Below are positions 18,027 to 23,912 of a stretch of 64,000 nucleotides of DNA, one piece after another (position 1 is the first letter of the stretch; every line of letters begins with the position of its first letter). Made by a program: the position numbers and the translations under genes. Source of the DNA: Bacilli bacterium (GTDB lineage Bacteria; Bacillota_I; Bacilli_A; ML615J-28; CAG-313); contig JAFVWY010000010.1 in the NCBI GenBank assembly GCA_017501465.1, positions 1-64,000 of the forward strand. Reading direction: 5' to 3'. Below the pieces are notes generated by a model. It was not told where the DNA came from and made no database searches. It was given only the letters and a program-made list of their open reading frames with translations.

Positions 18027-18902
18027 ATGAAACCATTTAGAGGATTATTAACAGAAAAAGAAAATGCTTTAGTTTATATTACAGGTATAGCTTATGATTT
18101 AGGCGCATCAGTCGGGAAAGGTGCGAGTTTTGCACCAAGTGTAATAAGAGATTTATCAAAACATTTGCCACCATTTACCATGGATGGTGATTCAATTGAA
18201 GATATTAAATTATATGATAATGATATTATCACACCTGATTCATTAGATGATATTAAAAATAAAACACTTGAACTATTTACTGAAAATATTTTTAATGTAT
18301 TTATAGGTGGAGACCATTCTGTATCAATTCCCTTAGAAGAAAATTTCTATGATTATTGGATTAAGCAAAACAAAACTCCAGTTATTATTCATATTGATGC
18401 ACATCCTGATTTTTGTGATTTTTATGATGGGTCTAAGTATTCTCATGCTTGTCCTAATATGCGCGCATATGATAAAGGTTACAAGTTGGAAAATATTACA
18501 TTAATTGGTATTAGAGGTTTTGAAAGACAGGAGGTTGAATTCTTTGATAAACATCCGGAACTAAAGATTTATCGTTCAAGTTATATCAAAGAAAATGGCA
18601 TTAATAATATGTTAGAGCAAATCATTAATAAATATTCTAGTGAAGAATATGTAGTTTATATTTCATATGATATTGATGCTAATGATCCTTCTTTTGTTAG
18701 TGGAACAGGAACTCCCGAGGCATTCGGAATGGACTCCTATGAAGTATTAAAAGTAATTACTACTTTAATTAATAAATTAAATGTTAAGTGTTTTGATATT
18801 GTTGAAGTATCTCCAACACTTGATGATAAAAATAATACTGCTTCATGGTTGGTTTTAAAGACTCTTTATGAAGTATTTAGAAAATTAATAGAAAAGAGAT
18901 AA
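18027..18902 (+). CDS. speB: Ureohydrolase, agmatinase/arginase family
   Basis: 291 aa. All binuclear Mn ligands are present: GGDHS (H97), DAHPD (D124, H126, D128) and SYDID (D215, D217), followed by DPSFVSGTGTPE, typical of agmatinases. The family hydrolyses guanidino compounds to urea; agmatine to putrescine is the best guess, arginine or formimidoylglutamate are alternatives. GAAGAGG precedes the ATG. The SpeD-like gene starts 5 nt after the stop, so the two almost certainly act in one polyamine pathway. The symbol is by family and context. Confidence 0.8.
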   Translation: MKPFRGLLTEKENALVYITGIAYDLGASVGKGASFAPSVIRDLSKHLPPFTMDGDSIEDIKLYDNDIITPDSLDDIKNKTLELFTENIFNVFIGGDHSVSIPLEENFYDYWIKQNKTPVIIHIDAHPDFCDFYDGSKYSHACPNMRAYDKGYKLENITLIGIRGFERQEVEFFDKHPELKIYRSSYIKENGINNMLEQIINKYSSEEYVVYISYDIDANDPSFVSGTGTPEAFGMDSYEVLKVITTLINKLNVKCFDIVEVSPTLDDKNNTASWLVLKTLYEVFRKLIEKR

Positions 18903-18906
18903 ATTT

Positions 18907-19716
18907 ATGAAACATATAACTTTAGATTGTTATGGCGCTAGTCAACATTTACTAAATGATTTAACAACAGTTTATGAAACATTAAATTATTTAGGGTATA
19001 AATTTAATTTAGAACCAATTGCACCACCTCATATCATTCCATATTATTATGGCAGAGTTAAACAAGATAGTGGCATTAGTGCGTATGTATTATTAAAAGG
19101 TGGTCATATTACAATTCATACTTTCCCATTTAGAGAATGTTACTTTGTTGATATTTTCTCAGGTGTTGATTTTGATGAAAACGAAATAAAAGATTATTTC
19201 TTAGATAATTTACCATTTAGTATGGAAGCTTCAAATTTTGAAATGATTGATCGTACTAAACAAAGATTTGATATTTCTCCATATGCACCTGATTGCGATT
19301 TTGGACCTCATTTAATGAGTGAAATTCATACCAATAAAGATATTACGATGGATATGATGTATGACTTTTTAGAAAGTTTTGTCTCTAAAATTAATATGGA
19401 TCCAATCATTAGAACAGTTGTCAATAAAGATAAAATTGAAAACCCTTCTTATATGTCTGGTATAGTAATAATTGCACAAAGTCATATTGCATTCCATTAT
19501 AATATTAAAGAAAAAGTAATTTTAGCTGACTTATTTTCATGTGCACCGTTTAATTATGATGAAGTAGAAAATTTATTTGCTCAACTTGGAACTATTACTT
19601 CAAATGTGTTAGTTCCACGTGGTACTAAACATATTTATAGAGTTCATTCAGAAATAACAGATGATGAATTAAAAGCTAGTACTTTATGGCAAAAAAATAT
19701 TGGAATTAATCGATAA
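18907..19716 (+). CDS. Tandem SpeD-domain pyruvoyl decarboxylase (AdoMetDC-like)
   Basis: 269 aa, about twice a bacterial SpeD (near 125 aa). Two SpeD-like halves are visible. The first (about 1-125) has KGGHITIH where SpeD has the ESHxxIH processing site, so the pyruvoyl Ser is Gly66, and the position 20 residues later, Cys in SpeD, is Gly86. The second half (about 145-269) keeps Ser192 (AQSH), His197 at +5 and Cys212 at +20, the spacing of Bacillus SpeD. Self-cleavage would occur at Gln191-Ser192. It lies 5 nt after the ureohydrolase gene. With no spermidine synthase nearby, it could be a repurposed arginine or ornithine decarboxylase rather than an AdoMet decarboxylase. Confidence 0.8.
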   Translation: MKHITLDCYGASQHLLNDLTTVYETLNYLGYKFNLEPIAPPHIIPYYYGRVKQDSGISAYVLLKGGHITIHTFPFRECYFVDIFSGVDFDENEIKDYFLDNLPFSMEASNFEMIDRTKQRFDISPYAPDCDFGPHLMSEIHTNKDITMDMMYDFLESFVSKINMDPIIRTVVNKDKIENPSYMSGIVIIAQSHIAFHYNIKEKVILADLFSCAPFNYDEVENLFAQLGTITSNVLVPRGTKHIYRVHSEITDDELKASTLWQKNIGINR

Positions 19717-19723
19717 AAAAAAG

Positions 19724-19750
19724 AAACAAGCCTTTTGTTGCTTGTTTTTT
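19724..19750 (+). terminator. Terminator after the SpeD-like gene
   Basis: Stem AAACAAGC/GCTTGTTT, 8-nt loop, T run. Confidence 0.85.
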
Positions 19751-22622: not shown

Positions 22623-23912
22623 ATGAAACCAATAGGATTAAAAGAAAAAAATAACATTACTTATATTAATGATTTCTCAATTAATGATTTAGTAAAAGAA
22701 TATAAAACTCCATTATACATTATTGATGAAAAACAATTATTAAAAAACATTAATGATTATAAGGATTCTTTTAAAAGTTTAATGTTTAAAACTAATGTTG
22801 TATATGCATCAAAAGCTTTATTAACTAAAGAATTAACTCATATTTTAAGTGAAAAAGACTTATATATGGATGCGGTTAGTTTGGGAGATCTATTTGTTGC
22901 AAAATCATCTGATTTTGATATGAAAAAAATTGTTTTTCATGGTAATAATAAATCATTAGCTGAATTAGAATATGCGGTTATTAATGATGTTGGTATTATT
23001 GTTGTAGATAATCTATATGAATTAAAATTGCTAATTGATGTTACTAACAGATTAGAGAAAAAGATTAATATAATGTTAAGGGTTAATCCTGGTATTGATG
23101 TTCATACTCACGTTTATGTTCAAACTTCTAAATTATCTTCCAAATTTGGAGAAAGTATTTTTGATGATGAAATCATTCATACCCTTATTAGTACTTTATT
23201 AACTTCTAAATATATTAATTTAATAGGTTTCCATGCTCATATTGGTTCTAGTGTCATGGAAGCGGAAGCATATCAATTAGAAATTGAAAAAATGGTTGCT
23301 TTTCAAAATAAGATTAATAATGAATACCATTTATCGCTTAAGCACTTAAATATTGGCGGTGGGTTTGGAATTACATATACAAAGAAAAATAAAGCAATGC
23401 CAATTCCAAAAATGATTTCTAAAGTAATAGGGTATTTAGAAGCAGAAATTAGTAAAACAAATAGTTTAATCAGTGATGTTTATATTGAACCAGGTCGTTC
23501 TATAGTAGGCAATGCCGGTGTTACCATTTATTCAATTTCACAAATTAAGCCAACATATGGAATGAAAAACTATTTATTCATTGATGGAGGAATGACTGAT
23601 AATATAAGACCCGCATTATATGAGGCTACTTATGAGGTTGATGTGGTTAATAAATTATCTGAAAATAAAGAACATTTGGTAGATGTTGTTGGTAAGTGTT
23701 GTGAGTCGGGTGATATTATCAGAAAAGATGCTCTAATACCTAGTGTTACTGATCAAGATCTATTGATTGTGTATTGTACTGGCGCATATAATTATTCAAT
23801 GTTTTCAAACTATAATAATATGTTAAAACCTGCTTTAATCAGTGTTGGTGATAAAGTGACACTTTGGAGTAGAAGAGAAGAATTGTCAGATTTAATTAGA
23901 TTATTTAAATAA
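22623..23912 (+). CDS. lysA: Diaminopimelate decarboxylase LysA
   Basis: 429 aa fold-type III PLP decarboxylase. The PLP lysine is K64 in YASKALL; HIGSS, GGGFGI, EPGRSIVGNAG (phosphate and substrate loop) and GKCCESGD (catalytic Cys of the partner subunit) follow in order. It converts meso-diaminopimelate to lysine and CO2 in the cytosol. It is a single-gene unit with its own promoter and terminator. The motif set fits DAP rather than ornithine decarboxylase, though a close polyamine paralogue cannot be fully excluded from sequence reading. Confidence 0.88.
   Translation: MKPIGLKEKNNITYINDFSINDLVKEYKTPLYIIDEKQLLKNINDYKDSFKSLMFKTNVVYASKALLTKELTHILSEKDLYMDAVSLGDLFVAKSSDFDMKKIVFHGNNKSLAELEYAVINDVGIIVVDNLYELKLLIDVTNRLEKKINIMLRVNPGIDVHTHVYVQTSKLSSKFGESIFDDEIIHTLISTLLTSKYINLIGFHAHIGSSVMEAEAYQLEIEKMVAFQNKINNEYHLSLKHLNIGGGFGITYTKKNKAMPIPKMISKVIGYLEAEISKTNSLISDVYIEPGRSIVGNAGVTIYSISQIKPTYGMKNYLFIDGGMTDNIRPALYEATYEVDVVNKLSENKEHLVDVVGKCCESGDIIRKDALIPSVTDQDLLIVYCTGAYNYSMFSNYNNMLKPALISVGDKVTLWSRREELSDLIRLFK

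Follow-up and report, generated by a model that had tools for sequence, protein, structure and literature searches.

Single-domain SpeDA proteins, which are derived from SpeD, are proven pyruvoyl-dependent L-arginine decarboxylases (Li et al. 2023, PMC10407285). SpeD-SpeDC fusions, known from Desulfotignum, Omnitrophica and Victivallis, combine an N-terminal AdoMet decarboxylase (AdoMetDC) that is active and encoded beside speE with a C-terminal half that is either an ornithine decarboxylase or degenerate (PMC10407285). A published model derives the two-domain AdoMetDC of eukaryotes from fused bacterial proteins whose first half is active (PMC10407285). In human AdoMetDC the pyruvoyl group is formed from Ser68, while Ser229 and His243 are needed for processing, and Ser55 of the T. 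maritima enzyme corresponds to human Ser229 (PMC3975893). The residue numbers place Ser68 in the first half of the human chain, with Ser229 and His243 in the second. Bacterial half-enzymes dimerise into the same sandwich as human AdoMetDC (PMC5201418).

Here we describe a gene pair from a Bacilli bacterium, located in a 64,000-nt stretch of contig JAFVWY010000010.1 that is called the window below. The pair consists of a ureohydrolase gene and a gene for a protein with two SpeD-type domains (the tandem protein). With a probability that we put at about 0.7, the two genes lead from arginine to putrescine in two steps; the tandem protein would then be an arginine decarboxylase and a built-in pseudo-dimer with one composite site.

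The ureohydrolase and the tandem protein

The first gene (positions 18027 to 18902, plus strand) encodes a SpeB-like ureohydrolase of 291 amino acids that matches the Pfam family Arginase with an E-value of 5.5e-60. Its best NCBIfam family was agmatinase, with 152.7 bits compared with 95 bits for arginase, though the score misses the 174.3-bit cut-off of the agmatinase equivalog TIGR01230. The nearest solved structure was the agmatine ureohydrolase 3pzl (E = 1e-26), and the binuclear metal-ligand motifs GGDHS, DAHPD and DIDANDP are found at 94, 124 and 215. Since agmatinases are nearest in both NCBIfam and the PDB and the metal-ligand motifs are present, the protein is likely to have agmatinase activity, as far as its sequence can tell and even though the equivalog cut-off was not reached.

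The second gene (18907 to 19716, plus strand) encodes the tandem protein, a predicted pyruvoyl-dependent arginine decarboxylase of 269 amino acids. Read from the window, the gap between the two open reading frames is 4 nt, not 5 nt as given in a first-pass annotation of this DNA. A hairpin with a T tract lies just 3' of the tandem gene, at 19724 to 19747. The terminator scan puts it on the minus strand and the T tract on the plus strand was read from the sequence; four terminator-like sites were found by the scan in the region compared with 0.6 expected. The hairpin is probably the transcript end of the tandem gene.

The Pfam family AdoMet_dc (PF02675) matched the tandem protein twice, at 50 and 32.1 bits with a cut-off of 25 bits, and a scan of the whole protein likewise gave two AdoMet_dc stretches (E = 5e-22). 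The first match is domain 1 (residues 1 to 131; 18907 to 19299, plus strand) and the second is domain 2 (residues 132 to 269; 19300 to 19713, plus strand). In domain 1, the codons of Gly65 and Gly66 (19099 to 19104) occupy the positions of T. maritima Glu62 and Ser63, so that the pyruvoyl Ser is absent, and Gly86 (19162 to 19164) takes the place of the catalytic Cys83. Ser58 (19078 to 19080), the equivalent of T. maritima Ser55 and human Ser229, and His71 (19117 to 19119), the equivalent of T. maritima His68, are kept in this domain. Domain 2 contains Ser192 (19480 to 19482), the predicted self-cleavage site and pyruvoyl precursor, as well as His197 (19495 to 19497) and Cys212 (19540 to 19542), the equivalents of His68 and Cys83. 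The three residues have the exact SpeD spacing, which is also the arrangement (Ser, His at +5 and Cys at +20) that serves as a criterion for SpeDA.

An AlphaFold2 model built with 48 relatives (pLDDT 91.1, pTM 0.90) showed two SpeD repeats. The best PDB matches of a single half of the model were T. maritima SpeD structures, with TM scores of 0.75 to 0.79 on the target. Over the whole length, Foldseek matched the human AdoMetDC proenzymes 1msv and 1jl0 with a probability of 1.00, but rigid superposition on the human enzyme was poor (TM 0.33 to 0.40), so that the packing of the two halves in the model is tentative. An earlier and shallower model (12 rows, pLDDT 82) had matched human AdoMetDC weakly; the deeper model matches it by Foldseek E-value, not by rigid TM. 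The possibility that a class 1a SpeD had been taken for a tandem protein was rejected, as there are two separate Pfam matches and two folds. The first-pass annotation had recognised two SpeD-like halves and had listed Gly66, Gly86, Ser192, His197 and Cys212 from the sequence; both halves indeed exceed the Pfam cut-off and are predicted to adopt the SpeD fold, and the residues are as it described, in a pattern that extends to the whole family.

Conservation and descent of the tandem proteins

Tandem proteins were found among relatives and in public genomes of Bacilli, Clostridia, Myxococcota, Aminicenantes, Peregrinibacteria and a few other groups, and residues were counted in an alignment of 57 tandem proteins. 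Position 66 of domain 1 is Gly in 56 of them and Phe in one, and Ser does not occur; position 86 is D, P, T, V or another residue, with Cys in two proteins. Ser58 and His71 are each present in all 57. The same is true of Ser192 and Cys212 in domain 2, where His197 is kept in 56 and Ser184 is relaxed (52/57). Measured against the nearest relative, domain 1 had a dN/dS of 0.12 and domain 2 one of 0.25. The absence of Ser from position 66, the retention of Ser58 and His71 and the low dN/dS indicate that the cofactor site of domain 1 was lost long ago and that the domain has been conserved since. A pseudogene or a decaying first domain was rejected on account of the dN/dS of 0.12 and the 57/57 retention. 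A search for two-domain homologues had been proposed by the first-pass annotation, and the 57 aligned relatives that it yielded share the asymmetry of the window protein. In the same annotation the first domain was called dead. This stands in so far as the domain has lost its own cofactor site, and is misleading in so far as Ser58 and His71 are invariant and the domain is under at least the constraint of domain 2; it is better described as a cofactor-less partner domain.

When the domains were separated, the first domains formed one clade (support 99/98) and the second domains another (100/100), with 100/100 and 99/89 in a second tree, all on about 130 alignment columns. Neither groups with the AdoMetDC side of the tree, and the clade of bona fide SpeD (SpeD1b) excludes both of them with 100/100. 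One clade per domain fits a single fusion event, to judge from these alignments. A sister relationship of domain 1 and domain 2 through duplication within the protein was neither favoured nor rejected (AU p 0.40). Two SpeDC rows, which have a long branch and were assigned by us, share a larger group with both domains. The first-pass annotation had proposed a fusion with a specialisation opposite to that of eukaryotic AdoMetDC, and the single clade of each domain and their position outside the AdoMetDC side are in agreement with it. In this tree, which holds no proven SpeDA sequence, domain 2 is near uncharacterised single-domain genes, several of which adjoin speB. At one such locus (L087) a deoxyhypusine-synthase-like gene lies between the SpeD-type gene and speB, an arrangement that resembles the published SpeDA-SpeY-SpeB clusters (PMC10407285).

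A mobile or phage origin was rejected, as searches of phage and plasmid collections did not find the tandem protein and viral contigs gave only single-domain or distant relatives of SpeD. Viral contigs (L147, L148, L156, L157 and L168) carry genes for an AdoMetDC-type SpeD and for a SpeDC-like protein as separate reading frames of one contig. In Bacillus phage vB_BcoS-136, a SpeD proenzyme of 357 aa (BFVD A0A3G3BVD9) matches the tandem model over 300 columns and may be a two-domain phage SpeD. Single-domain SpeD-like proteins of 125 to 158 aa were seen in five genomes that have a tandem gene (L120 to L124, in G086, G087, G099, G100 and G090). Their catalytic His/Cys region is altered, for example with Q for H or W for C, and they are possible silent paralogues like the trypanosome prozyme.

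A conserved operon of a different type surrounds the tandem gene at a number of Clostridia-type loci (L031-L038, L040-L043, L045, L066 and L048, the last in G002, a genome of the same family as the window). It starts in some cases with an agmatine-deiminase-like or SpeB gene, and continues with a 640-865 aa protein without a Pfam match, a P-loop protein of about 300 aa with a weak resemblance to KGGVGR-type ATPases, a 710-820 aa protein without a Pfam match and the tandem SpeD, followed in some by a radical SAM protein and a PPDK_N protein.

Polyamine genes and the substrate of the tandem protein

In the genome from which the window was taken, which is 96.6% complete, we found no speE, no member of the deoxyhypusine-synthase family (SpeY-like) and no OKR-fold PLP decarboxylase. 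The only PF02784-type PLP decarboxylase found there was lysA, the diaminopimelate decarboxylase gene at 22623 to 23912 of the window (TIGR01048, 401.8 bits), and a PLP-dependent arginine or ornithine decarboxylase was thus not found among the two PLP folds searched. As with SpeDA genes, the tandem gene in this genome is accompanied by SpeB or agmatine deiminase, canonical SpeA/SpeC being absent. The first-pass annotation had reported no spermidine synthase and had named a speE elsewhere in the genome as evidence against its reading; none turned up at this level of completeness.

Gene contents were compared across 58 genomes with a tandem gene, which are phylogenetically non-independent and in many cases incomplete. 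A strong speE was present in 19 of the 58, and 18 of these 19 also have an additional SpeD-type gene. Among the 39 without speE, 38 have the tandem gene only (Fisher p = 8e-13 for the association of speE with an extra SpeD), and in the sole exception, G087, the extra copy looks degenerate. In L039 and L060 a class-1a SpeD and SpeE stand beside the tandem gene. SpeB occurs in 27 of the 58 genomes, a member of the agmatine deiminase family in 18, either one in 44 and both in one, so that the two are nearly mutually exclusive; agmatine consumers of two unrelated families accompany the tandem protein, which favours arginine as its substrate. The 14 genomes with neither are mostly Clostridia with the different operon. 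SpeB and the tandem gene are separated by -4 to +23 nt at 14 Bacilli-type loci and in L039, and among 60 relatives of the window SpeB is present in 11 of the 12 that have the tandem gene compared with 10 of the 48 that lack it (p = 1e-5). In the window's own lineage the agmatinase-like gene is the only constant partner. OKR-fold PLP decarboxylases are absent from the 22 Bacilli-type genomes, save two matches below the cut-off in G022. Many Clostridia-type genomes do contain one, and this counts against the arginine reading, as do the 14 genomes with neither agmatine consumer.

These data bear on three other explanations. It is very improbable that the tandem protein is an ordinary AdoMetDC in tandem form that feeds an aminopropyltransferase, although its Pfam family is AdoMet_dc and in one locus (L046) the tandem gene, speE and speB adjoin. 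The window's genome has no detected speE, and 18 of the 19 tandem genomes that do hold one have a separate SpeD as well, that of L046 (G085) among them. Furthermore, the tandem protein falls short of the NCBIfam SpeD equivalog TIGR03330 (56.9 bits compared with a cut-off of 75.65), and its domain 2 lies outside the bona fide SpeD clade (100/100).

An arginase that makes ornithine, followed by a SpeDC-like tandem protein that makes putrescine, would yield the same product from the same gene pair. Bacterial SpeD fusions with an ornithine-decarboxylating C-terminal half are known (PMC10407285), and both domains share a larger group with the SpeDC rows. We regard this explanation as unlikely, because the ureohydrolase is nearest to agmatinases by NCBIfam and PDB and because none of the four SpeDC diagnostic residues (Gln, Thr, Phe and Tyr; PMC10407285), at positions deduced from viral SpeDC-like sequences, is found in the window protein. 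Across the family Thr62 occurs in 0 of 57, Gln58 in one and Phe69 in one, and only the Tyr is common. The agmatine deiminase family that replaces SpeB in 17 genomes would also be a misfit for ornithine. A further explanation, unlikely to a similar degree, is that agmatine chemistry is secondary and that the protein is a pyruvoyl-dependent decarboxylase of another amine, for example a modified arginine or some intermediate from the Clostridia operon. The 14 of 58 genomes without SpeB and agmatine deiminase and the uncharacterised partners in the Clostridia operon speak for it. The agmatinase-like gene as sole constant partner in the window's lineage, where we found no other source of agmatine, speaks against it.

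The best reading of the genomic evidence is thus that the tandem protein probably decarboxylates arginine, as favoured by the absences in its own genome, the pattern of speE and extra SpeD genes, the agmatine consumers, the pairing with SpeB and the tree position of domain 2. This agrees with the two-gene route from arginine through agmatine to putrescine suggested in the first-pass annotation: the competing enzymes searched for were absent, agmatine consumers co-occur with the tandem gene, and genomes with speE have a separate SpeD.

Proposed mechanism and comparison with known systems

In the proposed route, the tandem protein would cleave itself between Gln191 and Ser192, and Ser192 would become the pyruvoyl group. 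The mature protein would then decarboxylate L-arginine to agmatine, which the upstream ureohydrolase would split into putrescine and urea. Bacterial SpeD is active as a homodimer whose chains share their sites. Here a single chain holds both halves and would be a built-in pseudo-dimer with one remaining site, to which domain 2 would contribute the pyruvoyl Ser192 and Cys212 and domain 1 would lend Ser58 and His71 in trans. By homology with the human and bacterial enzymes, a single site is expected to combine Ser and Cys of one half with the equivalents of Ser55 and His68 of the other, and the retention pattern fits the eukaryotic AdoMetDC arrangement with the halves exchanged. The retention of His197 in domain 2 (56/57) counts against a composite site, which would put this residue in the silent site.

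We consider it reasonably probable that bacteria invented the trick of eukaryotic AdoMetDC a second time and independently. This would be an inverted, fused SpeD pseudo-dimer whose cofactor-less half supplies catalytic residues in trans, arisen on an arginine decarboxylase background, fixed across several phyla and replacing PLP-dependent arginine decarboxylase. Two genes would then lead from arginine to putrescine without PLP, and putrescine would be the final polyamine. If so, many uncultured gut and sediment bacteria would make putrescine without vitamin B6 by two genes. Many genes that are now filed under AdoMet_dc probably make agmatine, and what is predicted about polyamines in uncultured Bacilli and Clostridia of the gut changes accordingly. 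In addition, the family could be used to test directly what residues have to be retained by a silent half.

Like SpeDA (PMC10407285), the tandem protein has the SpeD fold and the Ser/His/Cys set, lacks an accompanying speE and clusters with speB or agmatine deiminase. SpeDA, however, is a single-domain homodimer, whereas the tandem protein has two domains per chain and one cofactor site, and the window locus differs from the SpeDA clusters in that speB comes first, in reversed order, and speY is missing. The SpeD-SpeDC fusions also have two SpeD-type domains in a chain of about 270-320 aa, with one domain degenerate in Victivallis. In the tandem protein, in contrast, it is the N-terminal site that is lost (no Ser66 in 57/57) and the C-terminal site that is kept. 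We found no earlier description of N-terminally silent SpeD fusions in the open-access literature, most subscription papers being outside this scope. The AdoMetDC and prozyme of Trypanosoma (eLife 2016, PMC5201418) likewise pair an active unit with a catalytically silent paralogue, but they are two separate class 2 proteins and not a fusion. Eukaryotic class 2 AdoMetDC such as human AMD1 is, like the tandem protein, a fused pseudo-dimer with one surviving pyruvoyl site; the catalytic Ser68 of AMD1 is in the first half, whereas the Ser of the tandem protein is in the second. The tandem family appears to have arrived at its solution separately, with the other half falling silent, so that the choice of the half to lose would not be fixed.
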